A stretch of 64,000 nucleotides of DNA from Verrucomicrobium sp. (GCA_017849585.1 JAFIGT010000010.1:62001-126000); one strand, 5' to 3'; shown: positions 2,705 to 20,217, numbered from the stretch's first letter. The notes: generated from the letters alone by a model not told the origin. Numbers and translations are program-made.

Positions 2705-2778
2705 GCGCTTTTCGAAAAATAAGGAATAACTCACACGGCCGGGAGCCGAAATCAACAAAAGAAAAATAAATCAAGCAT

Positions 2779-4485
2779 ATGAAAAACTGGAACATAGGGA
2801 AACGAATAATGGCCGGGTTTCTTGGCGTGATCCTGATCACGGCGATACTCGGGGGGTATGCGTTCATTCAACTGCAAGGGATCAAACAGAAGGCGACGGT
2901 GATCACGAGGAATTCCATTCCGGGAATGACCGTCGTCAGTGAAATTGAATCCCAAACGCGGGAACACTTTGCGTTAACCCTGCGGCATGTGATTGCGGAA
3001 ACAGCAGATCAAAAAGCTCAGATCGAGCAAAAGACCGCGGCGGTCTCGGTTCGAAATGGCGAGCTGTGCAAGAAGTACGAGAGCTTGATCACGAGCCAGC
3101 GGGATCGCGACCTGTTCGGTGAAATCGAGACGGCTCGTGCGGACTATCGCAAGACCTTCGCTGCTGTCACGGCCTTGAGCCGGGAGATGAAGGGCAAGGA
3201 GGCGATGGCGCTGATCCAAAGTCAACTGGTGCCGGAATTCGATCGATATATGAAAGCGGTGGATGGAGTTGTCAACTTTAACAAGCAAAACGCAGAGGCG
3301 GCTGGCGTTGCCATCGACGGCGCTGTGGCCAGCTCGATGTTAGGCATCGTGATTGGCTTGGTTTCGGCGGTCTTGGTCGGCTTGGGTGTGGCGATCTTCG
3401 TCACGCGCAGCATTACGCAGCCGCTGGCTGTGGCCACGGAGGCGGTCGGTAAGGTGGCTGGCGGCGACTTGTCGGCTACCGTGGCGGTGACTTCCACGGA
3501 TGAAGTGGGACAGATTTCGAAGTCTCTGAACCAGATGATCGAAAGCCTGCGCAATGTGGTGCATGAAGTGGCCAGCGCCTCCAACAACGTGGCCTCCGGC
3601 AGTGAGGAAATGAGCGCAACGGCACAGCAACTTTCGCAGGGCGCGACGGAACAGTCTGCCTCAGCGGAAGAATGTACTTCCTCTATGGAAGAAATGGCCT
3701 CGAGCATCCAGCAGAACGCGGACAATGCGCAGCAGACCAACAAGATTGCCGCGAAGGTTGCCCAGGATGCGCAGACAAGCGGCGTCGCCGTGACCAAGAC
3801 TGTGGCGGCGATGAATGAGATTGCGCAGAAAATCAACATCATTGAGGAAATTGCCCGCAAGACAGACTTGCTGGCGCTCAATGCTGCAGTGGAAGCCGCC
3901 CGGGCCGGCGAGCACGGCAAAGGTTTTGCAGTCGTGGCTTCGGAAGTGCGCAAGCTGGCGGAACGCAGTCAAACGGCCGCGGCGGAAATCAGCAAACTTT
4001 CGACCGAGGGTGTTTCCCTGGCGGAAAGCGCTGGCCAGATGCTGACCAAGCTCGTGCCGGAAATTCAAAAGACGGCGGAACTTGTGCAGGAGATCAGTGC
4101 TTCGAGCAATGAGCAGAACAGTGGCACTGCGCAAATCAATCAAGCGCTGCAGCAACTCGATCAGGTGATCCAGCAGAACGCATCGGCGTCCGAGGAGATG
4201 GCATCCACGGCGGAAGAACTGACCAGTCAGTCGGAACAACTTCAGTCGATCATCTCGTTCTTCAAGATTGATCAAAGCAGCCAGCGACTGGCCGATAAGC
4301 CAGCAACGAAGGCCGCGGTCAAAAAACCAGTGGTGGCACATGTGCCATTGCCAAAGCCCGCAGAGCGCGGTGGCAGCAATGGACTCGGTGTGACTGCTCC
4401 CAAGACTAATGGAGTGAAAATTTCCCTGAGCGAAACAGCTCCCGCAGGTGCTGATGAACGGGATAATGAATTCGAACGCTATTAA
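2779..4485 (+). CDS. Methyl-accepting chemotaxis protein
   Basis: 568-residue transmembrane receptor. TM1 lies at about 11-31, a periplasmic helical domain of about 150 residues follows (four-helix-bundle size), TM2 is near 187-207, then a HAMP linker and a long cytoplasmic coiled coil. The hairpin tip carries [20 protein letters not shown], the CheA/CheW contact. A flexible tail of about 60 residues ends in E-F-E-R-Y, matching the CheR-binding C-terminal pentapeptide pattern x-[HFYW]-x-x-[HFYW]. The gene lies between cheA and cheW, so it is likely the cognate receptor. The ligand cannot be told from the sequence. Its start has only a weak, A-rich upstream region. Confidence 0.95.
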
Positions 4486-4505
4486 TCCTGAACCAGGGAG
4501 ATTAT

Positions 4506-5018
4506 ATGAGCGTAGAAAGCATTAAAGAAACAGCGCAGTATATTACCTTCAAATTGGGGGACGAACTCTTCGCGATCAATGTCAGCCAAGTTCGGGAGGT
4601 GCTCGATCTGTCATTGATTACCAAAGTTCCCACGGCTCCCGGTTATATGCGGGGCGTGGTTAACGTGCGGGGCAGCGCCATTCCCGTGGTAGATCTGCGA
4701 TTGAAGTTTGGGTTGCCCAAAGCACCCGATACCGTGCAAACGCGCATCGTGGTGTTGGAATTGGAAATGGACGGCGAAGCCTTGGTGTTGGGCGGTCTCG
4801 CGGATTCGGTGCACGAAGTCATCGAGCTCGAGCCAAACCAGATCAATGCCCCGCCCCGCATTGGCATGCGTTGGAAGACGGAGTTAATTCAAGGCATGGG
4901 CAAGCGCGGCGATCAGTTCATCATCATTCTGGATATCACCAAAGTGTTCTCCATGGATGACATCGTTCAGTTGGAGGCGACTAAGGCCTCCCTGAATGCC
5001 GAGCCGGCCAACGCCTGA
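4506..5018 (+). CDS. cheW: Chemotaxis adaptor CheW
   Basis: 170-residue single CheW domain that bridges receptor and kinase. Recognisable parts are the N-terminal strand YITFKLGDELFAINVSQVRE, the middle MRGVVNVRGSAIPVVDLR, and the C-terminal FIIILDITKVF. An AGGGAG ribosome site sits just before the start, 20 nt after the receptor gene. Acts at the inner membrane in the receptor array. Length is normal and there are no extra domains. Confidence 0.95.
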   Translation: MSVESIKETAQYITFKLGDELFAINVSQVREVLDLSLITKVPTAPGYMRGVVNVRGSAIPVVDLRLKFGLPKAPDTVQTRIVVLELEMDGEALVLGGLADSVHEVIELEPNQINAPPRIGMRWKTELIQGMGKRGDQFIIILDITKVFSMDDIVQLEATKASLNAEPANA

Positions 5019-5135
5019 TCATTGGGGCATGAATCGAGTCGGTCCTCCGTTTCATCGACGGGGGACCGGGCTCGGATCAAAAATCATTCACCCGCTACTG
5101 CAACCCACTTTGATGAGATTGAATACAACGACGTC

Positions 5136-5996
5136 ATGAGCGTTTCTGCTTATAAACCGTGTCCGTACTCAGCGATGTCAAAGGAGAGCTTTGACCGTTT
5201 CAGCAAGTTTATCACTCGCGAACTCGGTATCAAAATGCCTCCTGAAAAACGTATCATGCTGCAGAGCCGTCTCTATAAACGGATGACGCAACTGCACCTT
5301 TCCAGCCTGGAGGAGTATGAGCACCATCTCTTTGATTTGCCGGAAACGAGTGATGAGTGGACGGAATTCATCAACCTTGTCACGACAAACAAAACGGATT
5401 TTTTTCGCGAGCCAAAACACTTTGAATTCTTGACCCAGACGGCCCTGCCATCGCTGGAGTCTGGCAAGCCAGGAGGGCGGCCATTCAAACTTTGGTGCGC
5501 CGGATGTTCTTCGGGTGAAGAGCCCTACACATTGGCCATGGTGCTGAGTGAGTATAGAGTCACCCACTCTGGTTTCGATTTTTCCATTTTAGCCACGGAT
5601 ATTTCCACACGCGTGCTCAATCACGCGCGCACGGGAATCTATGAGGAAATGCAGATTGATCCGGTCTCCATTGATCTGCGCCGCCGATATCTCATGCGCA
5701 GCAAGGACCGCAAGCGCGGGATTATTCGGATCAGCCCCGAGCTGCGGCAAAAGGTGCGCTTTGGGCGTCTGAATTTCATGAATGAAGACTATGGGGTGAA
5801 GGAGCAGTTTGATTCCATTTTCTTTCGTAATGTCATGATCTATTTCTCCAAACAAACGCAGCAGAATGTGCTGGAAAAGCTGTGCCGTAATCTCTGCGTG
5901 GGTGGCTATTTATTCGCGGGACATTCTGAATCCCTGGTGGGATTCGATTTGCCCATTCGTCAGGTATTTAATTCAGTGTTTCAGAAGGTGCGATGA
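5136..5996 (+). CDS. cheR: Chemotaxis protein methyltransferase CheR
   Basis: SAM-dependent methyltransferase that methylates receptor glutamates. The frame is open from a TTG at 5022, but the family begins near S-K-E-S-F-D-R-F, so ATG 5136 (or 5175) is the better start. The N-terminal helical domain is followed by the SAM-binding motif WCAGCSSGEEPYTLAM at about residue 120, the ATDIST strand, and the motif IV-like FFRNVMIYFS near 230. The stop overlaps cheD by 4 nt. The preceding receptor ends in a pentapeptide suited to tethering this enzyme. Neither candidate start has a clear ribosome site. Confidence 0.93.
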   Translation: MSVSAYKPCPYSAMSKESFDRFSKFITRELGIKMPPEKRIMLQSRLYKRMTQLHLSSLEEYEHHLFDLPETSDEWTEFINLVTTNKTDFFREPKHFEFLTQTALPSLESGKPGGRPFKLWCAGCSSGEEPYTLAMVLSEYRVTHSGFDFSILATDISTRVLNHARTGIYEEMQIDPVSIDLRRRYLMRSKDRKRGIIRISPELRQKVRFGRLNFMNEDYGVKEQFDSIFFRNVMIYFSKQTQQNVLEKLCRNLCVGGYLFAGHSESLVGFDLPIRQVFNSVFQKVR

Positions 5997-6508
5997 AAAC
6001 GATTTCTCCGTCTCTGCAAAGTGTGTGTCTGAAGCCGGGGAAGCTGTTTGTTGGCGATCGACCTTGCGAGGTGGTGACGCTGCTGGGATCGTGCGTGGCG
6101 GTAACCATGTTCAGTCCGAGGCTGCGGCTGGCTTCCATCTGTCACGCCATGTTGGCGGACCCGGATGGATCCCGGCATGTCCTGACAGAAATGTCGGAGC
6201 CGTATAAGTATGTCAGTCTGGTCGTTCCTTACATGGCGGAAAAATTTCGTCATTTGGGGATTGATCCGATTGAGACCGAGGTGAAGCTTTTCGGTGGTGC
6301 CAATGTCTTTGGGCATAGTCATACGAACAAACGGGGACATGGTATTGGTGTCGCCAATATTCGCCGCGCGCGGGAAATTCTCGATCAGTATGGTCTGCGT
6401 GTGGCGCGAGAACATACCGGCGGAAATCGCGGGCGAAAACTCATCTTTAACACGGTTAGCGGCGTGGTCTGGCTCAAATGTCTGAGGTCGCGCGACACGC
6501 TCAATTAA
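5993..6508 (+). CDS. cheD: Receptor glutamine deamidase CheD
   Basis: 171 residues, the expected size. The catalytic Cys is C34 in LLGSCVAV, the His is H51 in SICHAML, and the third conserved element is the HTGG segment near the C-terminus. CheD deamidates receptor glutamines. In Bacillus it is controlled by CheC, but no cheC is visible here. The start overlaps cheR by 4 nt, so the two receptor-modifying enzymes are coupled. Confidence 0.94.
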   Translation: MKTISPSLQSVCLKPGKLFVGDRPCEVVTLLGSCVAVTMFSPRLRLASICHAMLADPDGSRHVLTEMSEPYKYVSLVVPYMAEKFRHLGIDPIETEVKLFGGANVFGHSHTNKRGHGIGVANIRRAREILDQYGLRVAREHTGGNRGRKLIFNTVSGVVWLKCLRSRDTLN

Positions 6509-6527
6509 CGATTGAACAATAAATACT

Positions 6528-7631
6528 ATGCCGGAAAAAACGATACGGGTTCTGGTAGTTGACGATTCAGCGACAGTACGTCAAACGCTGAAGGAGGTTC
6601 TGGAGTCCGATCCGGGAATTACGGTTATTGCCACGGCCGCGGATCCATTTCTCGCGGTCGAACGGATGTCGCGCGAAATTCCAGATGTGATTACGCTCGA
6701 TGTGGAGATGCCCCGCATGGATGGGCTCACCTTTCTGGCGAAGATCATGAAGCAGCATCCGATTCCGGTGGTTATGTGTTCGAGCCTGACTGGAACCGGT
6801 TCGGAATCGGCCCTGATGGCGTTGGAGCGCGGTGCGGTAGATATCATTGAAAAGCCGCGCGTGGGTACTAAGCAGTTTTTGGAGGAATCACGGGTACGTA
6901 TCTGTGATGTGGTGAAGTCTGCGGCACGGGCTCGCCTTTTGCGTGGGCGCGGCACGAAACTGGATGCCGCGGCATTTGGTCCGATGACGTGCAATGTGCC
7001 GTGTCCGAAGTTGAGTGCGGATGTCATGCTGCCAAAGCCGGAATCGCATGCCATGATTGAGACCACGGAGAAAATCGTGGCGATCGGCGCATCGACTGGG
7101 GGCACGGAGGCTCTGCGCGAATTCCTGGAGGCGCTTCCGGAGGATGCCCCAGGCATAATTATCGTGCAGCACATGCCAGAGAAATTCACGGCTTGTTTTG
7201 CGCAGAGATTGGATGGCCTTTGTCGTGTCACTGTCAAGGAAGCGGCGAACAACGATTCCGTTTTGCGTGGACAGGCGCTCATTGCGCCTGGAAACAAGCA
7301 TATGCTGCTCAAGCGAAGCGGAAGTCGTTACTTTGTTGAAATCAAGGAGGGACCGCTGGTTAGCAGGCATCGGCCTTCGGTGGACGTCCTGTTTCGCTCG
7401 GTGGCGCGGTATGCGGGAAGAAATGCCGTAGGCGTAATCATGACCGGCATGGGTGACGATGGCGCAAAGGGTATGCAGGAGATGAAACAGGCGGGAGCAT
7501 ACAATCTGGCGCAGGATGAGGCTTCGTGCGTAGTTTTCGGAATGCCACAGGAAGCGATTCGTGCGGGAGGGGTGGATCGCATCATGCCACTCAATCAAAT
7601 GGCCGCGGAGGTGGTTCGGCTTTGTCGTTGA
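6528..7631 (+). CDS. cheB: Chemotaxis methylesterase/deamidase CheB
   Basis: 367 residues: an N-terminal receiver (D12/D13 acidic pair, phospho-acceptor D58 in [11 protein letters not shown]), a linker of about 60 residues, and a C-terminal methylesterase. The catalytic triad is S189 in IGASTGG, H215 in IVQHMP and D311 in GMGDDG. It removes receptor methyl groups when phosphorylated by CheA. It is the last gene of the chemotaxis operon and is convergent with pbpC, with only 8 nt between the stops. No Shine-Dalgarno sequence is evident. Confidence 0.96.
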
Positions 7632-7639
7632 ATGGATTT

Positions 7640-9973
7640 CTATTGAGTGACGGCAATCACTACGTTACGGGTGACGGAATGACCGCTTTCATCCACGGCA
7701 CTGACCGTGAAAGTGCCCGGTTTGGCTCGCCAAGAAATAGTTTCTCCAGGGACGCTGCTGCCCAGATAATTTTTTCCTGCAAACCAATAGATCAATCGCG
7801 TGGTCGATGAAGCTTGTGCCTGCAAGGGTATGGACTGATCTCGGGTGCCTAAACGCATTTGATACGCCAAGCCGGAGCGTGGCGAGGTGATCTCCAACGC
7901 CTGGGCCGTCGAATTTGCTACAGGATGGGCATCGGGTGCGAACGGTGGTGGCGTGGCGCGGGGGAGCCCGGCAAAACGGAAGAGCGTTTGCAAATCGGAG
8001 GGCCAAATCTCGACGATTTCGCGACGGACGTTCGGAACGTTATCCGCATTCGCGACACGATATCCCGTATGTGGGTCGATCAGGATTTCCTGATGCACAG
8101 TACAGGTTTTCAGAGGAGAAACGCCAGGAATGAACCAGCCGCGTTTCTGATGCAGGCAATGGGTGCTCGCGAGTTCACCTGTCACCGCACAAAGATTGAC
8201 CTGCTCCAGATTCAACCGGTCTCTGGATTCCCACGAGGCGGGGGTGACGTCCGGAGGTAGTTGCGCACGCAAGGCTTGGACGATGGAAAAGAAAAGGGGG
8301 GCTGCGGCGGATCGTCCAATAAGGGCCGGATTCGGTTTGCCGTCAAAATTTCCAACCCAGACGACCAGTACATAATGATCGAAGACACCTGCGGTCCAGG
8401 CATCGCGAAAGGAGTAGGAGGTGCCGGTTTTCCACGCGACCGGTTTTGCTGCCAGGGCTGAGGCGCGGATGCCTTGATAAGCGGGCAGATTATTTTTCTT
8501 GAGCATATCGAGAACTAAAAAGCTGGCTTCGGCAGAAAGTAGGGGACGTCCCTTTTCGCTCGGAGTTGTGAGGATTTTTCGAAGAGGACGAAATTCCCCC
8601 CGATTAGCAAGCATGGCATAAAGACCGGCGATGTTTTCGAGACTGACTTCGAGGCCGCCAAGGGGGATGGTTAGTCCATAGGATGATTCTGATCGCAGGC
8701 TGGAAACCTCAGCATGCTGTAGTAATTGATAGAGCGAGTGCTCGTGTAACTTTGATGCCAGCTCGACTGCGGGTACGTTGCGGCTTTGCACTAGGGCGTC
8801 GCATGCCTGAACCGGTCCCATGAAATCGCGGTCAAAATTTTCCGGATTGTATCCGTTGAAGCTGGAGGGGGCGTCCTTTAATAGGGAATGTGGTTGAATC
8901 AAACCTTGATCGAGCGCCAGCGCGTAGACAAATGGCTTGAGCGCGGAGCCGGGGGAACGCTTCATGCGCACCCCGTTCACCTGACCATTGATTTCGGGAT
9001 TGAAATAATCAGCGGAGCCAACCGAGGCAAGAACCTCCATGGTGCGGTAATCAACAAGCAGGGCTGCTGCATTGGTAAGGCCTTCACGGGAGCGCTCGAC
9101 GAGTGCGGTGGCGAGTTGACGTTCCAGCAGTTGCTGCCAACGCCAATCGAGGGTGGTGAGCAGGTGGCGGGAATCGGCTCCGGATTGCAGGCAATCCTCG
9201 CTCAGGTGTGGTGCGCGAAAAGGTAGTTGTGACAGGTTGCGTACTTGCAGTGGCATCTCAATGAAGGCTTGCTTTTCACGGTCGGCGGGATGCTTCTGTA
9301 CCCATGCGTCAAAGAGTCCGCGGCGCGCATCGAGCAGGGATTGCTCTCCCTTTGCTCCGGGTGCGCGACGTTTTGGATTTTGTGGAATAACGCTGAGTGT
9401 CAACGCTTCGGTGAGGCTCAGGTCTGCAGCTTCCTTGCCGAAGTAAATCCGTGCGGCAGCCCCTACTCCCTCGATATTACGGCCATAAGGGGCAAGATTG
9501 AAATAGGCTTCGAGAATCTGCCGCTTGGAGTAATGGCATTCGATGCGCGCTGCCATGAGGATTTGCCTCAGTTTTCCGGACCATGTACGGGTGTTCAAAC
9601 GATAGCGCAACCGTGCCAATTGCATGGTGATGGTGGAGGCTCCAATGCGACGGTGCGAAGGAGCGAGTTCATTCCAAAATGCTTTGGCAAGAGCAATGGG
9701 ATTGGTGCCGGTATGCTGATAGAAGTAGCGGTCCTCATAGAGCAGCGTGGATTCGATCATCAGCTTGGAGATTTTATCCAGTGGCACGAATTGCCGGTAG
9801 CTGTCGTCTGTCGAAAGACCAAAACGCAACAGTTCTCCATTGCGATCGTAAACGACTGGCGAGAAAGAGATGCCCTCGAGTAGCGGCGGACGCGGGGCGA
9901 GATGCAAAGCGAGTAGAATCGTGGCCAGAATAAAGGCGCTGCCGAGCAGGAGTTGGGAAAGGCAGCGTTTCAT
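7640..9973 (-). CDS. pbpC: Penicillin-binding protein 1C
   Basis: 777-residue bifunctional peptidoglycan synthase anchored by an N-terminal membrane helix (about 8-26). The transglycosylase domain contains the catalytic Glu in LLYEDRYFYQHTG (near 79) and RRIGASTITMQLARL. The transpeptidase motifs are S-x-x-K in SPGSALK (about 344), SRN (about 396) and KTG in WKTGTSYSFRDAW (about 515). A BiPBP_C-type beta domain ends the protein. Its start overlaps the stop of the upstream alpha-2-macroglobulin by 4 nt, the same order as yfhM-pbpC in Escherichia coli, which supports a periplasmic repair/defence role. Confidence 0.94.
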   Translation of the reverse strand: MKRCLSQLLLGSAFILATILLALHLAPRPPLLEGISFSPVVYDRNGELLRFGLSTDDSYRQFVPLDKISKLMIESTLLYEDRYFYQHTGTNPIALAKAFWNELAPSHRRIGASTITMQLARLRYRLNTRTWSGKLRQILMAARIECHYSKRQILEAYFNLAPYGRNIEGVGAAARIYFGKEAADLSLTEALTLSVIPQNPKRRAPGAKGEQSLLDARRGLFDAWVQKHPADREKQAFIEMPLQVRNLSQLPFRAPHLSEDCLQSGADSRHLLTTLDWRWQQLLERQLATALVERSREGLTNAAALLVDYRTMEVLASVGSADYFNPEINGQVNGVRMKRSPGSALKPFVYALALDQGLIQPHSLLKDAPSSFNGYNPENFDRDFMGPVQACDALVQSRNVPAVELASKLHEHSLYQLLQHAEVSSLRSESSYGLTIPLGGLEVSLENIAGLYAMLANRGEFRPLRKILTTPSEKGRPLLSAEASFLVLDMLKKNNLPAYQGIRASALAAKPVAWKTGTSYSFRDAWTAGVFDHYVLVVWVGNFDGKPNPALIGRSAAAPLFFSIVQALRAQLPPDVTPASWESRDRLNLEQVNLCAVTGELASTHCLHQKRGWFIPGVSPLKTCTVHQEILIDPHTGYRVANADNVPNVRREIVEIWPSDLQTLFRFAGLPRATPPPFAPDAHPVANSTAQALEITSPRSGLAYQMRLGTRDQSIPLQAQASSTTRLIYWFAGKNYLGSSVPGETISWRAKPGTFTVSAVDESGHSVTRNVVIAVTQ

Positions 9974-12900
9974 TGACCGGATTCCTTTTCAACGGCGATA
10001 TGGCTCGACCGCGCGCGGGCTTGGATTTGTGGTTGATACATCGATTCGGCTTGTGTTCCCGGAACGACATAGGTGCCGCGATTCACGGCCTTGATGCGGT
10101 AGATAAATTCGCGGACCGCGCGATAGGCGGTTCCATAAATCACGACCCGATCTTCACGCACATCAACGGAGTCAATCGGGATCATTTCCCAACGCAGATT
10201 CTTTTCACTGCGTATAATTCCACTTTCAGCGGCACGGACAGAATCAATCACTACTTCGAAGCCACCGGGTAGCAGGTCGATGATGGCCGCATTCTCGAGC
10301 ACGTCTTGGTTCAGGGCACGTACTTTGATATGCACTTCGATTTCCTCTCCGAGCGTCGCCTTGGTCACGACATCGCCTTCAGCGTTACGAAATTCACGCT
10401 GCACTTCCAACCCTTCGGCGATGACCTGATTTGCAGGACTCTTTTCAAAACCCGACTGCACGACCTGATAGAAGACAGGTGGTTGTTTAGTCAGGGAACC
10501 GCCGCCATCGCGGGTAAGGCGTATCGCACGGGTCGCAACTGTGAGGGGCGCTTGTTTGACCAGCGATCCTGTAGTGGAGAGTGGTTGGAAATCGGTGTCC
10601 GTTTTGGCCGCGATCGTGAAATCGCCCGCTTGTGCGACTTGCCCGTAAGCTTGCAGTCCGAGAATGGCATAGGCCGCGCTATGTGTATTATAATTTCCCT
10701 GCAAAATTGGCCGGATGATCGACTGTAAATTCTCAGCAGTAACCAGCTTCAATCGTTCCGGAAAGTGATGAGCCAGGATGTAGAGATACTGACTGTCGCG
10801 ATCCAATTCCGAGTAGAAGTCATCGTTTGCTTTAAGCGATGTGCCCATCGTGAATCCGGCCACGAGGCGTTCGCCTTCGCGTACGTTGCGCAGCTGGGCA
10901 TAAGCTCCGGCGCAATAGAGGGCTGCGAGGTCGTTCTTCCACTCTTTGGGATAATGTTGCTCGAGATGAGAGCGCAAACGGTCGAGGGCATTTGTGGTGA
11001 CAATGTCGTTGCGTGTAAGGAGATAAATAGCGAGCGCCTGATGACGCGCCTGCGACAACGACCGGGGTGTTTCGGTGGCCATTTTTTCGAGATAGGCCAA
11101 ACCTTCTACCAGCATGTCGGTCGGAACCGGGTAGTTGCGCTCCCTGGCTTCGGTCAGGAATTGCATGACATAGGCACTGGTAAAGTGAAGGGGCTCCACC
11201 TTATCGGCCCGCCATAAACCAAAAGCGCCTTGATCATTCTGACGGCCGCGCAGAAGAGCGAAGATTTCGATAAAGGCTTTGGCGGCCTCAGTCTTGCTCA
11301 CGCTGAATTCATTTTCTCCAGCCAGAACGACCAGGGGCAATCCCCGGCTGGTAAGTTGCTCCGAGCAGAGATGTGGATAATCATCCAAATACGATTTCAA
11401 ACCTCGGCATAGACCAAGAGGAAGCGCAGACACATAGGAGACACCCTTGAAATAGGCTGGGTAGAAATCGTGCTTCAATATGACATCCTCTTGTATTCCT
11501 GTGAACGATCCGCCATGAATCACTGTGCGTTGAGCGACTGGTGGACGAATGCTTATATGTGAGACGTATTGAGCGGAGGCAGTCCCTCGCTTTGCGTGGA
11601 AAGTGAGGTCGGCATTACCGAGTTGATCCTTGGCGCGGCAAAGAAAATGGACGACCGTATCGCGCCCTTCAGCAATCGTGAGAGATGACTCGGGCTTCTG
11701 AAGGATTTCAAGAGATGGCGATGCCTCGATATCCAGCAGCACAGTGGCAGTGGGACCGGAGCCCTCCTGTTGATTGGCTACGCTCACACTGACATCGAAA
11801 GTATCGCCTGGAGCTACAAAGGTGGGAACGTTGGGTTGAATGATGAAGGGGCCTCGTGCGATTACTTTTCGCTCTACAGATCCGGCTGCATTCTCCGAGA
11901 TAGCAACAGCCATCAGGCGCAGGGTGCCGTTGAAATACTCCGGCACGGTATAGTGTGCTGTGCGCGATTGGGGACTGCACTCTAAAATGCCAGACCAATA
12001 GACCACTGGCGCTTCATTTTTTCGCTTGAAGGGGTTGAGATTGGCTGCGAGCAAATCCTCCCGACCGTCGCCACCAGCAGCGGCAACTTCACGGGAGATG
12101 GAGTATTCCGGAAGAATTAAATCGAGAATCTGATCGGTTGTGACCTGTAAGGCTCGCTTCTGTAGGAAATAGTCCAGCGGGTCTGGGACCTGATAGTTGG
12201 CGACTTGCAGGATGCCTTCATCCACGGCATAGACAATGACTTTCGATGGTTTGTCGCTGCGATATTGAATTGAGAGTGTTCTCCCGGGGATGACTTTTTC
12301 AGGAACCGAAAGTTCGACGTGGATGGTTCGCTTCGCGCGGCTGACACGAAAGGGGATGACTGCGTAACTCAGGGGACTCATGAAAATCTCTCGGGAATCA
12401 AGAGAGCGCACGAATGCGACATTGATGTAGCCGTTGCCTTCAAAATCTTTCGGGAGCGTGATTTTTTGCACGCTGCTTAGCGAGGTGGCGCGAAACCAGC
12501 GATGAGCATGTACGCGTTCCCTTTCAATCGTGATAAGACCAGAACCCGTATAGGGTGCTGTGATTGCAATGGAGATATCTTCTCCCGGCAGGAATTCATT
12601 TTTTGAGAGTTGAGCTTTGAGTTCGGCGTTGCGTTCGAGCTGTCGTGTGGCGCTGCCGGTACCGACGACAGAGAATCTAATTGCGTTGACGCAGACGTTC
12701 TGGCTGTCATACAAGCGCGCGATGAAGTCGCCGGTTCGACCCGTGGGAACGATCCATTTTTGGCTGACTGCAGCGAGGGTAAGTATTTTGGTTTCGACTT
12801 CCCGCTCTTTAAGAACGGATTGATAGGCATAATTGCCGTTTTCTTTTTTCGTCAATACAGAGAGATAATATTGTTCTGAGAGAACGAGCTTGAGATTGCC

Positions 12901-15804
12901 GGCAGCGAAGGGCCGCAAATGCGGATCAACGGCCAGTAGTTCCACCGTGCGCTGACTGTTGCGATGAATAAACCGTAGATCGCCATCCGTTTTGAACCCG
13001 ACAAGCCATGGACGCGCAGAGACGAGGATTTCACTGCCGATGGCGACGCTGCGGCCTCCTTCCTTTTCGAAGCCACGCGCTACGTAGGTCAGGCGATAAG
13101 CGGAGGCATCAAAGCGGGCAAGATTGAAGTCGAGCTCGGCAAGGCCTTGGTCGTTGGTTGTTGCCGTGGCGAGTTCTTCATCATGAGGTTCGCGTTTGGT
13201 GGTTTCTTTTAAAAATGGATCGTAGAAATTGAAGTCGGAATAGTTTTTGAACGCAATGGCGGCGGGGGTAAGAGACATTTTTCCGGTAATACGATGGCCT
13301 GCTGCGGGGGCTCCATAGAGGTTTTTCAGGTTTACATTGACCTTTAAGCCATCTGGCTGCACCCAACCAATGGACGGTTCGCTGGTGAGTTCCGCCTGGA
13401 TTTTGAGCCGGTCCGGGAGGAATTCCTCGACGCGAATGGATGTGCTGCCGAGTAACTCGCCACGCTTATCTTTTTTGCGCAGGTAGAGGCCAATGGTGTA
13501 AAGGCCGGTGGGGGCGGCTTCACGTGTGGTATATGACCACTCGAAGAATCCATCGACAGGTGACTGAATTTGAATCGTGGTGGATTCTCGTCCTTGCGGA
13601 TCGGTGATGGCAATTTCAAGCGGGAGTCCGGCGAGACGGTCCTTCCAATCCATTTGTTTCAGCGCGATGCCGAAATGGGCTGTATCGCCAGGCCGATAAA
13701 TATCGCGATCAGAAAAGAGGAATGCCCCCAGCGAATCAGGCCGGGGAAGTTCCACGCCCGAGATGTCGTAACGCGAGTAGTTGAGACGACGATCGGCGCG
13801 TCCATAGGGCATGAATGAAAAATCGTTACCGTGACGAACTACGAGAGCGACAGGTTCCTGTTCGCGCTTGAAGTCTTTCAATATCGGCAAGGTCGCATGA
13901 CCGCTCTCATCCGTGGAGGCTGCCACAACGGGGACGCCGTTTTTGCCGAGGACTTCGACTTTTGCACCCTGAACAGGTAGCCCAGTCTTGACGGATTGTA
14001 CAAAAACATCCTGCGAGCCATCGGCGTTTAGTTTGGCGACGAAGCCGAGATCGGTAACGAGAATGAGGCGGCGGTCAGAAACGAGATCCGCTGAGTCGTG
14101 ATCTTCCCAGCGATGGTCGGAGGTGCGGTTGTCCTCCATTGATGAAGCGCTGGGAGAGGATTCCGATTCATCGTCGGACGGTTTGACCTCGGCTACGCGA
14201 ATAAGAAACAGACCGCGATGCTCGCCGGTACGTTTATCGGTGAGGCAGTCGTTGAGATTGAGCGTTAGATAGCTGGACTTGCCGGGTTCCGCAACGACAT
14301 CGATTTTGCGGGTTGATATATCGCAAATATTATCTTCACCGAAGTGGTAGCTCTGAAAAACGGGCGATTGGAAATTACCGCTCGACTGGCTGATGAGGTG
14401 ATTGATTTCCTTTGGGTCGACGCGGCCGATGCGATATTCGACTTGTGAGAGGCTTCGAGCGAGCACGGACAACTTGTGTTCTCCACTGAGTGCGAGTATC
14501 GCGCCCTCATGGAGAAAGCGGATTTCCTTGGCGTAAGGAGTCACCTTGACCACGGTTCGATAGTCATTCTTCATGACGAAGCCTCCAAGGCTGGTGAGAC
14601 CGTTCCGAACCTGTATCAGAAGATAGCGGTTTTCCGGCACCGATAATTGCAGGCTGTGAGTCTCGGGATAGTCGATCTCGGGAGTGTTCCATTTGATTGC
14701 GATGGGCTTGGATTGCGCGAGCAGCGCGTCGTCCACTTCACCCGCGCCGGACCAGTCGTAGTTCTGAACTGCAGGACGCGATCCGCGGGCGGGTTTATCT
14801 GCGGGAAGCAGATGAACTGTGATGGCTTTCTTCAAGTCATCCGGCTTCACGCCGATGGTGGTTTCCAGAATCAGAGTTTGCTCTGGTTCTCCATTGAGAT
14901 TGGTGGCAATGACCGTCTCTGCGCGCTTAAAGCGGAGAAAACTGTAGAGATTTGGCACGCGCAATTCACCACTGAGCGGAGCATGGAGAGTGGCCTCTCC
15001 AGAGCGATTGGTGAGTTCCTTGCGTACCTGAAGCCGCAGATAGTTGTCTTCTTTCGGCAACCGGATGGGGAGCGAGCGAAGGTAAGCGGTGCGACCATCA
15101 GGAGTGAGCGTGATGGCGAAAGGCGCTTCGTCTTTTTGAGCGTGCGCAAAAAGATCCTCCCGACCTTGCCATTTCCATTCGAGGGATCGCAAAAGTGCGG
15201 CGGCATCGACGGGATGTGTGAAGGTGATGGTGGCGGTGGTGCGTCGTTCGCTCGGATCTTTCGGATTCACATAGAACTCCACGGCATGGATCGAGGCGCG
15301 AAATTTCTCCGTCGTGAATCGCGGACGGTAGGTATTGAGCTTCACTTGGGCTGGGAAGAGGGAAGATTGCAACCTCACGGTATATTCTTTTCCCGCGGGC
15401 CAATCGGTTTCCGGTTGAAAGGTCAGTTCGCGATCTCTGAGCCATGTCCATGTACCGGGGAGGGCGGGTTGCAGTTCGACGCCACGCACCACTTTTTTTC
15501 CAATCTGGTCGAGGAGCGCAGCGGATTGGGAAAATTTGACGGAGAGTGGTGCGGGCCTGATTTTGCCATCGACGACCGGGGAGACGGGTGGGGCGATGAC
15601 GGAGACGGTGGTGAGATCGGCTTTGGGTTGATTGGAATTCCACCAGGACGAAATACCGATGATCAAAGCGATGGAGAGTAAGAAAATCAGAATGCGCTTG
15701 AGGCTCGTGGAGTTGGACGATTTTTGTAGCCAGCGCGGGGGCTGCCAGGAGAGGGTGCCGAAGGTTGAGGAAAAAATTCGTTCGAGAAAAGCGAAGCGAT
15801 TCAT
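9970..15804 (-). CDS. Bacterial alpha-2-macroglobulin, membrane-anchored
   Basis: 1944-residue protease-trap protein of the bacterial A2M family. Large N-terminal MG-like beta domains lead to a bait-region segment and a thioester domain. The thioester motif C-S-E-Q is intact, with Cys at residue 1480 (codon 11365-11367) in the context YPHLCSEQLTSRGLPL. Residues about 37-54 form an N-terminal membrane helix. There is no lipobox Cys, unlike the lipoprotein form in E. coli, so this appears to be an uncleaved signal-anchor variant facing the periplasm. It is translationally coupled to pbpC. The longer length relative to E. coli YfhM (about 1650) suggests extra N-terminal domains. Confidence 0.92.
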   Translation of the reverse strand: MNRFAFLERIFSSTFGTLSWQPPRWLQKSSNSTSLKRILIFLLSIALIIGISSWWNSNQPKADLTTVSVIAPPVSPVVDGKIRPAPLSVKFSQSAALLDQIGKKVVRGVELQPALPGTWTWLRDRELTFQPETDWPAGKEYTVRLQSSLFPAQVKLNTYRPRFTTEKFRASIHAVEFYVNPKDPSERRTTATITFTHPVDAAALLRSLEWKWQGREDLFAHAQKDEAPFAITLTPDGRTAYLRSLPIRLPKEDNYLRLQVRKELTNRSGEATLHAPLSGELRVPNLYSFLRFKRAETVIATNLNGEPEQTLILETTIGVKPDDLKKAITVHLLPADKPARGSRPAVQNYDWSGAGEVDDALLAQSKPIAIKWNTPEIDYPETHSLQLSVPENRYLLIQVRNGLTSLGGFVMKNDYRTVVKVTPYAKEIRFLHEGAILALSGEHKLSVLARSLSQVEYRIGRVDPKEINHLISQSSGNFQSPVFQSYHFGEDNICDISTRKIDVVAEPGKSSYLTLNLNDCLTDKRTGEHRGLFLIRVAEVKPSDDESESSPSASSMEDNRTSDHRWEDHDSADLVSDRRLILVTDLGFVAKLNADGSQDVFVQSVKTGLPVQGAKVEVLGKNGVPVVAASTDESGHATLPILKDFKREQEPVALVVRHGNDFSFMPYGRADRRLNYSRYDISGVELPRPDSLGAFLFSDRDIYRPGDTAHFGIALKQMDWKDRLAGLPLEIAITDPQGRESTTIQIQSPVDGFFEWSYTTREAAPTGLYTIGLYLRKKDKRGELLGSTSIRVEEFLPDRLKIQAELTSEPSIGWVQPDGLKVNVNLKNLYGAPAAGHRITGKMSLTPAAIAFKNYSDFNFYDPFLKETTKREPHDEELATATTNDQGLAELDFNLARFDASAYRLTYVARGFEKEGGRSVAIGSEILVSARPWLVGFKTDGDLRFIHRNSQRTVELLAVDPHLRPFAAGNLKLVLSEQYYLSVLTKKENGNYAYQSVLKEREVETKILTLAAVSQKWIVPTGRTGDFIARLYDSQNVCVNAIRFSVVGTGSATRQLERNAELKAQLSKNEFLPGEDISIAITAPYTGSGLITIERERVHAHRWFRATSLSSVQKITLPKDFEGNGYINVAFVRSLDSREIFMSPLSYAVIPFRVSRAKRTIHVELSVPEKVIPGRTLSIQYRSDKPSKVIVYAVDEGILQVANYQVPDPLDYFLQKRALQVTTDQILDLILPEYSISREVAAAGGDGREDLLAANLNPFKRKNEAPVVYWSGILECSPQSRTAHYTVPEYFNGTLRLMAVAISENAAGSVERKVIARGPFIIQPNVPTFVAPGDTFDVSVSVANQQEGSGPTATVLLDIEASPSLEILQKPESSLTIAEGRDTVVHFLCRAKDQLGNADLTFHAKRGTASAQYVSHISIRPPVAQRTVIHGGSFTGIQEDVILKHDFYPAYFKGVSYVSALPLGLCRGLKSYLDDYPHLCSEQLTSRGLPLVVLAGENEFSVSKTEAAKAFIEIFALLRGRQNDQGAFGLWRADKVEPLHFTSAYVMQFLTEARERNYPVPTDMLVEGLAYLEKMATETPRSLSQARHQALAIYLLTRNDIVTTNALDRLRSHLEQHYPKEWKNDLAALYCAGAYAQLRNVREGERLVAGFTMGTSLKANDDFYSELDRDSQYLYILAHHFPERLKLVTAENLQSIIRPILQGNYNTHSAAYAILGLQAYGQVAQAGDFTIAAKTDTDFQPLSTTGSLVKQAPLTVATRAIRLTRDGGGSLTKQPPVFYQVVQSGFEKSPANQVIAEGLEVQREFRNAEGDVVTKATLGEEIEVHIKVRALNQDVLENAAIIDLLPGGFEVVIDSVRAAESGIIRSEKNLRWEMIPIDSVDVREDRVVIYGTAYRAVREFIYRIKAVNRGTYVVPGTQAESMYQPQIQARARSSHIAVEKESGQ

Positions 15805-15895: not shown

Positions 15896-18769
15896 TCAGT
15901 TGCAGAGGATATAAGGACCGGCGGAGCGGACGGCTTGCCAGAGTCCGTTTTCTTTTCGGATGGTAACGAGTTGATCACGTTGAACTTGTGATAAATTGAA
16001 GGCGCGGCGGTAGAATGCTTGCATGAAGGTGGCGGCATAGGCGTCGTCGACGGGCCAGAGGGTCATGACCAGATTTTGCGCTCCGGCGAGGAGGAATCCC
16101 CGGCGCAGGCCGAGCACGCCTTCCCCGGCTTGAATCGGGCCGGTGCCGGTATCGCAGGCGGACAGGACAACCAGCCACGTATGATGCAGGTTAAGCGTTC
16201 CGACTTCCGAGGCGGTGATCACGCCATCTTTTTCGGGCGTCGGGAATTCGCCGCGCTGCCAGGCGTAGAGCGTGGCTTGGGCTCCAGCGAGTGCGAGCAG
16301 ACTGGTGGAGCCGGAATGGGCCGCGCGGGTGGTCACGCCCGGAATCGGATTGGCAGTCACGGGTTTGGTCGTCGCCCAAGCGAGACCATGCGTGGCGAGG
16401 TGGAGAATCCGGGGCGAACCGATGGCCTTGAGCTTCGCTTCGGTGGCTTGGGGGCCGGAATAGGATTCCACCTCGAGCCCGCTTTCCTTCGCGGCGCTTT
16501 GCAAAAGGGCGGCCTCGCGTTGAGCACCGGGCAGGGGTGATAACCGGATGGCATCGCTGGCCGTGCCGGTGGATTTGGCCGGGCCGAAATCGGGAGAGGA
16601 GAAGAGGACGAGTCGCCGATCCGATTCATGGATGGCGGTAGATGTCCGCAACAGGTCGCGCGCGCTGGTCACATATTCGAAGGTGTATTTTTCGGCCAAA
16701 AAGCGGTCATCCGGCGAGAGCAGGGTGGCGAAGGAAATGGAATTCAGGGCGGAGTCCGGGCTCAGAATCACACGCTGGCAGTCGTTGCCCAATGCCGATT
16801 CGAGGGGCTGCCAGAGACGCTGTTCCAGCTGCTGCAGGACGGCGCGTAGCGCGGTATCGCGCACACGGCGGCGCACATACTTTTGATAAAGTTGAATGGA
16901 CGCGTCGATCGTCTCCGCGTTGCCGAGTTCGATCCAGCGCGGGGGTTGATTTCGCCGTTGCACCACCGCGCCGTAGGCCGGTTGAAAAGTGAGGTTCTTG
17001 CCGCAGGTCTGATAGCGGACGAACTCGATGAGCGCGGCGTGTTCCGGTATGGCGGCGGCGATGGTGGCGGGCTCGACTTGCAGGGCGCGGCGGCTCGATT
17101 GGGCGCGACCCATTTTCTCGCCCAGCTGCCATTGCAGGCGGTCGATCTCGCGCTCGAGCGGTTCCCGTTCGGTGGCGGTGGGATTTTTTTCGAGCGTGCG
17201 CGCGGTCGCTTGCAAGCGGGCCAGCAGCGCGGCGATCTCGGGATTGTCCGAGGCGCGCGCCTCGGCGAGTTTATCTTCCAGAATGGAATCGAGCACCACA
17301 CCCTTCGTGCGATAGACCACGCGGGCGATCTCGGTGGCATCCCCCAGCGTGGCGGTGAGGTTGTAGAAGCGGAGTGTACGTTGGAAATCGATACGTTGTT
17401 TTTCCGACGTGAAGAGAAACAGATTTTGCAGCAGATGTTCGCGTACGGTGGAGGCTTCGCGCGCCAGCGCGGTCGCTTCCGGGCGATGTCCCAGTTCGAG
17501 CTGGAGACACGCGCTGTTCTCCAGGGTTTTCAGCAAGTCGGGATGATATGGTCCGAGGGCCGCCCGCTGAATGGTCAAAGCCTGCTCGTAGAGCGGAGCT
17601 GCGGACGCGAGCTGGCCGCTGAGATGATAGTGGCGGGCGAGGAATCCATAGCTTGCGGCGGTTTCGGGATGTGGCTCGCCGAGAATGCGGCGGCGAATGT
17701 CGAGGGCGCGTTGGTGCAGCGGTTCCGCACGGCCGTATTGACCGAGCGTGTCGTAGAGATAAGCGAGATGAAAAAAGGAGCGGGCGGTGTCGGGCTGATC
17801 CGCGCCGATAACTTTCTCCCGCGACTGCGCGGCGCGTTGCAGGAAGGACTCCGCCGCCGTGTAGTCGCCGAGATCGTAGTAGAGAAGGCCGAGGTGATTG
17901 ACTGATGTGAGTGTGAGCGGATGATTCACGCCGAGCTTTTGCTCGCGGATGCGCAACACGCGCCAGAACAGGGTTTCGGCCCGTTCGTAATCGCCCATGC
18001 CGAGATACACCAAGGCGAGGTTATTGACCGTGGTGGCGGTGGCGAGCGAGCCGCGGCCCTTGACCCGTTCGCGAATGGCGAGGGCCTGCGAGAAATAATG
18101 TTCCGCCTGCTGGTAGTCCCCGCGCACCCAGTAAAGGGTCGCAAGATTGTTGAGCGTGGTGGCGCTCGTGGCGGTATCAGGGCCGAGGGTTTCCTTCTGG
18201 ATGGCGATGGCTTCCAGAAAATAATTCTCGGCGGCGGTGTAGTTGCCCTTGTTCTCGTTCAAAACACCGAGACTGTTCAAGGCCAGCGCGGTGCGCGGGT
18301 GACGCCGCCCCACCTGTTTCTCATCAATCGCCAGCACGCGCAGAAAGAGCGGTTCCGCCTTCGCGTAGCTCGACATGTTGGAATAAAACCAGGCGAGATC
18401 GTACAATGCCTCGCCCACGCGCAAGTCCTCCGGGCCATGCGCTTGCTCGCGGGCCGAGACGACTTCGGTCAGGCATTTCTCCGCTTCGGGAAAACGGTGG
18501 CAACGCAAATAGAGTTGAGCCAATTCGTAGCGGGCCGTGGTTGTCGTGCTGGGATCGTGGGCGCCGAATTGTTGTTCGGCCAGAGCGACGGTTTCCCGGC
18601 CGAGCGCGAGAGACTCCTCGACCTTGCCGGTTTGCATCTGCTCTTTGGCCAGCTCAAAGCGCTTGGTCCAGTCGATGACTGAAGGTGGGGTGGTCGAGGG
18701 ACTTTGTGCCCACATCAGCCCCGGGACGAGCGCGAGCAGCAAGAGAAGAAGGAGCAAGCGGGGCGGCAT
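15896..18769 (-). CDS. Secreted TPR-CHAT caspase-like protein
   Basis: 957 residues. A Leu-rich signal peptide (about 1-22, ending MWAQ) is followed by roughly ten tetratricopeptide repeats of the Kinesin-light-chain/TPR_12 type (about 60-450, with recurrent AEPLFLRVLAI, AENYFLEAI and AEHYFSQALAI elements), a helical linker (480-560), and a C-terminal CHAT domain (about 650-957). The CHAT catalytic dyad is present: H794 in LHLATHGLAW and C872 in VLSACDTG, followed by GEGVLGLRRGFLLAGA. CHAT proteins are caspase-fold peptidases; the predicted location is periplasmic. It is divergent from a sigma/anti-sigma pair, so regulated proteolysis linked to that pair is a plausible inference. The substrate is unknown. 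Confidence 0.9.
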   Translation of the reverse strand: MPPRLLLLLLLLALVPGLMWAQSPSTTPPSVIDWTKRFELAKEQMQTGKVEESLALGRETVALAEQQFGAHDPSTTTTARYELAQLYLRCHRFPEAEKCLTEVVSAREQAHGPEDLRVGEALYDLAWFYSNMSSYAKAEPLFLRVLAIDEKQVGRRHPRTALALNSLGVLNENKGNYTAAENYFLEAIAIQKETLGPDTATSATTLNNLATLYWVRGDYQQAEHYFSQALAIRERVKGRGSLATATTVNNLALVYLGMGDYERAETLFWRVLRIREQKLGVNHPLTLTSVNHLGLLYYDLGDYTAAESFLQRAAQSREKVIGADQPDTARSFFHLAYLYDTLGQYGRAEPLHQRALDIRRRILGEPHPETAASYGFLARHYHLSGQLASAAPLYEQALTIQRAALGPYHPDLLKTLENSACLQLELGHRPEATALAREASTVREHLLQNLFLFTSEKQRIDFQRTLRFYNLTATLGDATEIARVVYRTKGVVLDSILEDKLAEARASDNPEIAALLARLQATARTLEKNPTATEREPLEREIDRLQWQLGEKMGRAQSSRRALQVEPATIAAAIPEHAALIEFVRYQTCGKNLTFQPAYGAVVQRRNQPPRWIELGNAETIDASIQLYQKYVRRRVRDTALRAVLQQLEQRLWQPLESALGNDCQRVILSPDSALNSISFATLLSPDDRFLAEKYTFEYVTSARDLLRTSTAIHESDRRLVLFSSPDFGPAKSTGTASDAIRLSPLPGAQREAALLQSAAKESGLEVESYSGPQATEAKLKAIGSPRILHLATHGLAWATTKPVTANPIPGVTTRAAHSGSTSLLALAGAQATLYAWQRGEFPTPEKDGVITASEVGTLNLHHTWLVVLSACDTGTGPIQAGEGVLGLRRGFLLAGAQNLVMTLWPVDDAYAATFMQAFYRRAFNLSQVQRDQLVTIRKENGLWQAVRSAGPYILCN

Positions 18770-18895
18770 GGGTGGGGTTTCGTCATCATCGGGACAAATA
18801 GCCGGGTTTCAAGCGTCTAAGAGCCTGTGAGGAAGGAGCTATCGAGGGCGAGTGCACTTGCCAGTGAAGCTGTTTTTATGAAGGATGGGGGAACG

Positions 18896-19507
18896 ATGTG
18901 GAGCGAGGCGTCTTTGCTGAAAGCGTTGCAGGCGGGGAGTGAATCCGCCTGGGATGACGCTTTTCGCCGTCTCTATCCCTGTGTCCTGGCTGCGGCGCAA
19001 CATCCGCTCGCGGGCTTGACCGCGAGCGAGGCGGAGGATGTGGCCATGGAGGCGTTGACGCAGCTGGTACCCAAGGTGGGTGAACTGGAGACGTGGGAGG
19101 ATTTGCGGGCGCTGGCGGTGACGATTGCGGGACGTCGGGCGATTTCCGAGAAGCGTAAATTGACCGCGGAAAAGCGCGGGAGCGGCCAGACGGAGAGTCT
19201 GGAATTTTTGCGGGAAAAGACGGACGGTTTATTCGAACCCGCCGATTTGATTGCGAACCTGCAACCCACGGAATTACGCGAACTCGCGGCCCTGTTGGGC
19301 GACGCCATGAGTGAGCTCGAACCGCCCGCGCCGCAACTGATTCGCGAGTTTGTGGTCGACGGCATTTCCTATAAGGAACTCGCAGCGCGGCATCGGCTCC
19401 CCATTGGCACGGTGGGCGTGCATTTGGCCCGGGGCTTGAAAAAGATCCGGTTGCGCATTGAAAAAAATCCCCTTTTGTTGAAAGAAATTACGGCCCATTG
19501 GCGATGA
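18896..19507 (+). CDS. ECF-like RNA polymerase sigma factor
   Basis: 203 residues from ATG 18896, chosen because a GGGGGA ribosome site precedes it and because M-W-S-E-A-S-L-L-K-A-L starts like region 2 of sigma-70 proteins; upstream GTG 18827 and ATG 18878 are in frame. Region 2 is recognisable from SAWDDAFRRLYPCVLAAAQ and EAEDVAMEAL. Region 4 has the helix-turn-helix SYKELAARHRLPIGTVGVHL followed by ARGLKKIR. The next gene, 14 nt downstream, encodes a membrane protein of anti-sigma shape. Divergent to the TPR-CHAT gene. The region 2 sequence is divergent, so the exact ECF group is not assigned. Confidence 0.8.
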   Translation: MWSEASLLKALQAGSESAWDDAFRRLYPCVLAAAQHPLAGLTASEAEDVAMEALTQLVPKVGELETWEDLRALAVTIAGRRAISEKRKLTAEKRGSGQTESLEFLREKTDGLFEPADLIANLQPTELRELAALLGDAMSELEPPAPQLIREFVVDGISYKELAARHRLPIGTVGVHLARGLKKIRLRIEKNPLLLKEITAHWR

Positions 19508-19521
19508 TAGAGTAGCAAGAT

Positions 19522-20217
19522 ATGCACGACGACGAATTCCAGCATCTGGCCCTGAAGGCGCTCTCCGGCGAAATTTCCCCGGAGGAGAATGCCGCGTTGG
19601 AGCGTGGCCTGAAGGAGGAACCGGCCCGGCAGGCGGAGTTGGAAGACTTGCGCGCGGCGTTGGAGCTCACGCGCGCCACGCTACCGCTGGCCTCGTCGCT
19701 GGAAGCGCCTCCGGCGGAATTGCCCGCGCATCGCTTGAACCAACTGCGCTCCGCCGTTCGATTACATTTCCAGAAAGAAGAAGCGAAACCGGAAGCGGCG
19801 ACTCGTTTCGCGGGCTGGAACTGGCTGCGCACGACGTGGGGTCAAGGACTGAGCGGGGCGGCCTTGGCAGTGCTGTGCGTGGTGTTGATTTTTGCCTCGT
19901 GGCCAAGCCCGTCCGGGATCGAGATCGGACTCTATGCGGAATCGACGACGCGCGATGGCGTGACGGCGTTGACGCTGCCGGAGAGTGCGTCGGTGCGGGT
20001 GACGCGCTTCGAGAATGATCAGGCGTTCGATCGCTGGCTTTCGCGTCCGTTTGACCGGGAGGAAAAGGCCCGCATCTGGTTCGATGACGAGCACGATCTC
20101 ATTCATGTGCGACTGCGCCCAACGCTCTTCCGGGAGAGTCGCGAATGGACCCGGCCGCTGCCAGCCAGCGACGCGGATCGCCGCGCGGCACTGGAGTCGC
20201 TACTGCGCTCGCTGTGA
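19522..20217 (+). CDS. Putative membrane anti-sigma factor
   Basis: 231 residues with one membrane helix at about 114-132 (ALAVLCVVLIFASW core). The cytoplasmic N-terminal part (about 1-105) is helical and Glu/Leu-rich, beginning HDDEFQHLALKALSGEISPEE, like the anti-sigma domain of ECF partners but without the zinc motif HxxxCxxC. The external part (about 100 residues) is unrecognised. Position immediately after the sigma factor gene is the main argument for its role. It could be a substrate or sensor for the neighbouring secreted CHAT protein; this is inference only. Confidence 0.65.
   Translation: MHDDEFQHLALKALSGEISPEENAALERGLKEEPARQAELEDLRAALELTRATLPLASSLEAPPAELPAHRLNQLRSAVRLHFQKEEAKPEAATRFAGWNWLRTTWGQGLSGAALAVLCVVLIFASWPSPSGIEIGLYAESTTRDGVTALTLPESASVRVTRFENDQAFDRWLSRPFDREEKARIWFDDEHDLIHVRLRPTLFRESREWTRPLPASDADRRAALESLLRSL

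Follow-up and report, generated by a model that had tools for sequence, protein, structure and literature searches.

A stretch of 64,000 nucleotides from Verrucomicrobium sp. (GCA_017849585.1 JAFIGT010000010.1:62001-126000), referred to as the window, contains at positions 15896-20217 three adjacent genes, predicted to code for a secreted tetratricopeptide repeat (TPR)-CHAT protein, an extracytoplasmic function (ECF) sigma factor and a membrane anti-sigma factor. The trio may form a transmembrane switch, in which the exported CHAT protease would cut the anti-sigma factor and thereby free the sigma factor; this reading is given about an even chance. It is based on the predicted features of the three proteins, on the conservation of the catalytic dyad and of the gene grouping, and on two solved relatives, Csx29 and DdvA.

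A secreted TPR-CHAT protein and a sigma/anti-sigma pair

The initial annotation had described a 957-residue protein with a signal peptide, TPRs and an intact CHAT dyad (H794, C872), divergent from an ECF-like sigma factor and from a one-pass membrane protein with a cytoplasmic helical domain, and all these elements were recovered (Table 1). The open reading frame (ORF) of the first gene matches PF13424 in its TPR region (E 1.6e-99) and PF12770 in its CHAT domain, and the dyad is intact in all aligned homologues, including distant ones, with identities down to 21%. Sequence inspection identified a hydrophobic N-terminal signal segment, MPPRLLLLLLLLALVPGLMWA-QS, and a hydrophobic segment is present at the N-terminus of nearly all linked CHAT homologues as well. 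An AlphaFold model, built with 22 homologues, reached a mean predicted local distance difference test score (pLDDT) of 85.5 and a predicted template modelling score of 0.82. Two loops near the active site of the model, 801-820 and 873-883, have pLDDT values below 50 and may be mobile.

Structurally, the CHAT protein is best matched by Csx29 (7y9x_B, Z 27.1; Z 24-27, with about 490-580 residues aligned). DdvA was matched with Z 19.0 over 577 residues, and is also the best sequence match among the solved CHAT proteins (hmmsearch E 4.1e-8); the ATHG and AACEGG motifs, containing His and Cys respectively, are both kept in its aligned regions. The TPR part is structurally similar to kinesin light chain and APPBP2, both peptide binders. 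PADLOC reported no more for the locus than a generic TPR model and a weak match to BovA, and no RAMP (PF03787) match was found in the whole genome, which is 96% complete. Membership of a defence system was rejected on these grounds and, because RAMP matches are missing genome-wide, the locus is regarded as devoid of a Cas7-11 (gRAMP) effector. A second, weak CHAT match is located in the same genome, within a 1264-aa frame (G000:C23:190618-191019, L002).

The sigma factor matches TIGR02937 with 47.7 bits, over the cut-off, as is also the case for Sigma70_ECF and Sigma70_r4_2; its best solved relative is SigW. Since conservation starts at residue 24 of the listed ORF, the preceding 23 residues being kept only in the closest relatives, the listed ORF is probably too long and the true start is likely the ATG at 18896; a GTG at 18827 was rejected as a start on conservation. 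The window belongs to contig C32 of a genome of 4.8 Mb, and its sigma factor is 99% identical to that of the metagenome-assembled genome 'Verrucomicrobia bacterium Tous-C9LFEB' (L105). This nearest named relative, and other relatives labelled Candidatus Methylacidiphilales, place the host most likely in that order of the Verrucomicrobiota.

A sigma-dependent promoter had also been expected within the divergent intergenic region. Visual comparison of the sequences preceding sigma and CHAT genes established no sigma-specific promoter upstream of the CHAT gene. The element CTTGYCW precedes the sigma gene in 11 of 16 relatives, as counted by eye and without a shuffle control. It was not recognised in the compared regions before CHAT genes and is similar to an ordinary -35 box, so it is not put forward as a sigma-specific motif. 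In the close relative G039, the divergent CHAT and sigma genes are separated by a 115-bp near-perfect palindrome (49-nt arms, 94%; L017:10358-10472), which looks like a small mobile repeat and whose core is absent from the window.

The third gene starts 14 bp downstream of the sigma gene, directly following it, and the sigma/anti-sigma order is maintained in the genomes of the order wherever contigs permit. The model of its 231-aa product shows N-terminal helices (residues 1-83), a transmembrane (TM) helix and a small alpha/beta outer domain. The N-terminal domain matches RsiW (5wuq_C, Z 7.3, residues 1-74) and MucA (6in7_A, Z 6.6, residues 1-54), values which, being under 8, are taken as supportive, not as proof. 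NCBIfam anti-sigma models were matched weakly, below the cut-off (E 3.6e-8). Because of its predicted fold, its position and these weak family matches, the protein is classified as an anti-sigma factor, predicted to bind the sigma factor. The best PDB matches of the outer domain were of the anticodon-binding type found in aminoacyl-tRNA synthetases, and were too weak (Z 6-7.6) for an assignment. Two genomes, G196 and G067, pair a sigma factor of the same family with the same N-terminal anti-sigma domain, followed by a long helical tail without a TM segment (L125:7039-7746 and L126:7660-8355); no CHAT gene was found in either genome at E 1e-15.

Table 1. Features of the trio, with positions counted from the first letter of the window.
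Feature	Position	Strand	Basis
Secreted TPR-CHAT protein, predicted caspase/separase-like cysteine protease	15896..18769	-	957 aa
Signal peptide, about residues 1-21	18707..18769	-	MPPRLLLLLLLLALVPGLMWA, read directly
TPR superhelix, kinesin-light-chain type, about residues 34-454	17408..18670	-	PF13424/PF13374; helical pairs in model
CHAT protease domain, residues 643-922	16004..16843	-	PF12770 E 9.7e-57, over cut-off; one domain
Catalytic His codon, H794	16388..16390	-	Invariant in 22/22 homologues
Catalytic Cys codon, C872	16154..16156	-	Invariant in 22/22 homologues
Divergent intergenic region	18770..18895		CTTGCCA at 18857-18863 (+)
ECF sigma factor, 203 aa	18896..19507	+	TIGR02937, Sigma70_ECF, Sigma70_r4_2
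Predicted membrane anti-sigma factor, 231 aa, one TM segment	19522..20217	+	Fold, position, weak family matches
Cytoplasmic anti-sigma domain, residues 1-83	19522..19770	+	Model helices 3-83; matches to RsiW and MucA
TM segment, residues 109-127	19846..19902	+	Mean hydropathy 2.18
Extracytoplasmic domain, residues 128-231	19903..20214	+	Conserved in linked anti-sigmas; pLDDT about 79-87 for 161-231
Arg144, candidate recognition or cleavage point	19951..19953	+	R in 27/27 anti-sigmas; low-confidence loop

Conservation of the gene grouping

The distribution of the three genes was evaluated in a sample of 384 genomes of the class and in the 62 genomes of the window's own order. Within the order, 12 genomes carry the sigma factor and 9 yield a strong CHAT match; every one of the nine also has the sigma factor. 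An anti-sigma factor with both a TM segment and an outer domain occurs in 25 of the class genomes. A CHAT gene is present in 19 of these 25, compared with 57 of the 359 others (p 4e-10), and, outside the own order, in 10 of 13 versus 57 of 309 (p 1e-5); these counts and p-values ignore shared ancestry.

Where both genes are present (19 class genomes), they are adjacent in 12. All three genes lie together in each of the three genomes of the window's genus, and again in two genera of a second family (L017, L033, L021, L025), and adjacency of anti-sigma and CHAT genes spans families f1, f6, f10, f12, f19, f25 and f64. A probable further case is G091 (f21, L121), where the sigma factor and the anti-sigma factor are accompanied by the N-terminal part of a TPR-CHAT-like protein that is truncated by the contig end. 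The trio takes two layouts, either divergent, as in the window, or as a co-directional operon in the order sigma/anti-sigma/CHAT. Three anti-sigma/CHAT pairs are present on three contigs of G344, each of them adjacent. In G064, G087 and G095 the order sigma/one-TM protein/CHAT is kept, with anti-sigmas that are barely alignable. In G009 the CHAT gene is split into two overlapping frames by a frameshift or a sequencing error (L025:6466-9155), next to intact sigma and anti-sigma genes.

Searches were also extended to other groups. A contig search with the sigma alignment A1 returned 12 relatives from the Verrucomicrobiota group, including two mislabelled records, and three weak Bacteroidota matches, and when the anti-sigma profile was run across the phylum, hardly any match came from outside the class. 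No description of the chromosomal trio was found in the open-licence literature.

A tree was built from 44 CHAT domains of the class. One clade of 20 rows (support 88/95) contains 18 rows from anti-sigma genomes; the remaining two are from genomes without a confirmed full anti-sigma factor, G101, where the sigma gene is cut at a contig edge, and G281. CHAT domains from f25, from G147 and from the set with divergent anti-sigmas form a neighbouring group, and that of G269 is a long, unplaced branch. Outside both groups, CHAT genes have no same-family sigma gene within about 5 kb in the sampled loci, except L074 and L101, a comparison which serves as a control for unchosen loci only, loci having been partly chosen for adjacency. 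In f38 an N-terminal FHA domain and a TM segment replace the signal peptide of the TPR-CHAT protein (L076:6782-10417, L104:4060-7515), and anti-sigma-like proteins of f25 (L127, L129) carry a fused stretch of FHA-like appearance. These associations hint at a link with Ser/Thr phosphorylation.

A possible transmembrane switch and its alternatives

In the proposed mechanism, the RsiW-like N-terminal domain of the anti-sigma factor would at rest retain the sigma factor on the inner side of the membrane, while the TPR-CHAT protein, predicted to be exported, would wait in the periplasm as a latent separase-like protease, with its TPR superhelix as the likely sensor or docking arm. On a signal, CHAT would cut the outer domain of the anti-sigma factor, possibly at the loop of Arg144, and the shortened protein would then be degraded by site-2 and cytoplasmic proteases, leaving the sigma factor free, as in the pathways of RsiW and RseA. 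The genome contains an M50 homologue of site-2 proteases. The predicted topology, with both the CHAT protein and the outer domain of the anti-sigma factor outside, fits this scheme, and cleavage is made plausible by the facts that Csx29 cuts a sigma-factor inhibitor and that DdvA is a transmembrane anti-sigma factor. We infer that CHAT either cuts the outer domain or docks on it because topology, conservation of dyad and linkage, and the two solved relatives all agree; docking only is considered less likely than cutting.

Among 27 anti-sigmas with a median outer-domain identity of 18%, Arg144 alone is constant in the outer domain, and it is followed by Gly in 21 of them; its loop (143-149) has pLDDT values below 50 in the model. 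Since several clan-CD families cleave after Arg (PMC4357240), it represents a candidate P1 residue. It may just as well be a docking residue.

Several observations weigh against cleavage, or against Arg144 as its site. The alignment near Arg144 may be forced for the four most divergent anti-sigmas. In separase, D2151 binds the P1 Arg, and the equivalent residue of Csx29 is K670 (PMC9729208); in the CHAT protein this position is Ala913, and it is variable across the family. This residue, at the S1 position, thus gives no support to a separase-type Arg specificity. As to linkage, the CHAT gene of the sister genus g2 lies near an alpha-2-macroglobulin gene, and the sigma/anti-sigma pair beside a cytochrome P450 gene. 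A lack of conserved adjacency had been named at the outset as a refuting outcome, and it applies only in part: adjacency holds in at least seven families and fails in g2, where both parts are present and unlinked. Three incomplete g2 genomes with an anti-sigma factor show no CHAT gene, and G193 and G197 also have an anti-sigma factor and no CHAT gene at E 1e-15.

Part of this evidence would suit a TPR-CHAT protein which regulates the anti-sigma factor by binding: as a sensor on the outside, it would attach to the outer domain, perhaps at the Arg loop, and either hold or loosen it, in the way that the CHAT portion of DdvA may act inside a single polypeptide. DdvA, the closest solved CHAT protein by sequence, is itself named a transmembrane anti-sigma factor, and its structural match shows a TPR-CHAT region and an anti-sigma factor joined in a single chain; Arg144 need not be a cleavage site, as the separase Arg pocket is not conserved. 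A pure binder would however have no need for the His and Cys that are invariant even in the most divergent homologues, and this explanation is considered unlikely, although not negligible. A slightly lower probability, still within the range of the unlikely, is assigned to a CHAT gene that is a mere target of the sigma factor, which would drive its promoter while the protease cuts something else. Divergent and operon layouts are likewise expected of a sigma factor's own regulon, and unlinked persistence in g2 suits a regulon member, but CHAT genes showed no recognisable copy of the element that recurs upstream of sigma genes, and both the grouping of anti-sigma genomes in the CHAT tree and the three linked pairs of G344 would be left unexplained.

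The lack of adjacency in g2, G038, G143, G147 and G269 could suggest that the sigma pair and the CHAT gene are unconnected and neighbours by chance. A pair would fall within 6 kb by chance with a probability of about 0.25% per genome, whereas adjacency was found in seven to eight families, in two layouts, and in three linked paralogous pairs of one genome. Linkage being far above expectation, chance adjacency was rejected for the class as a whole, and it is regarded as highly improbable for the trio.

Neighbouring genes and relation to known systems

Directly downstream of the CHAT gene, the region 7640-15804 (-) codes for a 1944-aa bacterial alpha-2-macroglobulin (A2M) and a PBP1C-type penicillin-binding protein, an A2M/PbpC pair. 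In g2, A2M adjoins the CHAT gene or lies one gene apart (L029, L031). Because A2M is found near CHAT in g2 too, this protease-trap gene accompanies the secreted protease, and does so only in family f1. Beyond A2M/PbpC, at 653-7631 (+), the starts of the ORFs look like those of a chemotaxis cluster (CheA-, MCP-, CheW- and CheB-like).

The pairs RsiW/SigW, MucA/AlgU and RseA/RpoE share with the window an ECF sigma factor and a one-TM anti-sigma factor, with a match in the N-terminal fold, and the site-2 protease family found in the window's genome. They differ in having no CHAT protease in the same locus and a different outer domain; the site-1 proteases of the RsiW, MucA and RseA pathways are DegS or PrsW. 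In the CalpL/CalpT/CalpS system, a Lon-type CRISPR-associated protease frees a sigma factor by cutting its inhibitor, but the protease is unrelated to CHAT and responds to a cytoplasmic cyclic-nucleotide signal. The Lon protease is mentioned in PMC10028731.

Csx29 is a TPR-CHAT protease that cuts Csx30, the inhibitor of an ECF-like sigma factor (PMC10028731). In the type III-E system known as Craspase or CASP (Csx29, Csx30 and CASP-sigma RpoE; PMC10028731, PMC9729208), as in the window, a TPR-CHAT protease with His and Cys retained, an ECF-type sigma factor and an inhibitor are encoded together. Csx29 is however cytoplasmic and activated by the Cas7-11/CRISPR RNA complex, and Csx30 is soluble, whereas in the window the CHAT protein has a signal peptide, the inhibitor is a one-TM, RsiW/MucA-like protein and the genome has no detectable RAMP gene. 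DdvA-DdvS of Myxococcus xanthus (PDB 8rot, 8rw5) is similarly composed of a transmembrane anti-sigma factor with a TPR/CHAT region and its ECF sigma factor; the signal inactivating DdvA was unknown as of PMC4374960. In DdvA, anti-sigma factor and CHAT form one chain, whereas the window has two genes and an anti-sigma factor with an outer domain of its own. Fused copies were not found among the sampled CHATs of the class, no anti-sigma domain being present in 52 CHAT ORFs.

The trio looks like a two-gene version of the DdvA/Craspase idea in which the protease is exported. Few CHAT proteases have a known substrate, and Csx29, the best known among those acting on a sigma inhibitor, belongs to CRISPR; the CRISPR-free trio and its fused counterpart DdvA provide a testable case for an ordinary role of TPR-CHAT proteins and for a possible origin of the Craspase cassette. 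If cleavage is shown, the secreted protein would belong to a new class of site-1 proteases that act on anti-sigma factors. A more specific proposal is made only tentatively, with rather more doubt than confidence: the secreted TPR-CHAT protein would be a relative of Craspase that faces the envelope and is free of CRISPR, serving as dedicated site-1 protease in a Verrucomicrobiota ECF sigma pathway and recognising the loop with the invariant Arg, and the type III-E TPR-CHAT/sigma-inhibitor/sigma cassette could derive from a pool of chromosomal switches of this kind. Since protease-triggered release of sigma factors is well known, and pairings of TPR-CHAT with sigma inhibitors are found in Craspase and DdvA, the system is not categorically new; what is new is that it has no link to CRISPR, is divided over two genes, has its protease outside the cytoplasm and recurs in many families of one class.

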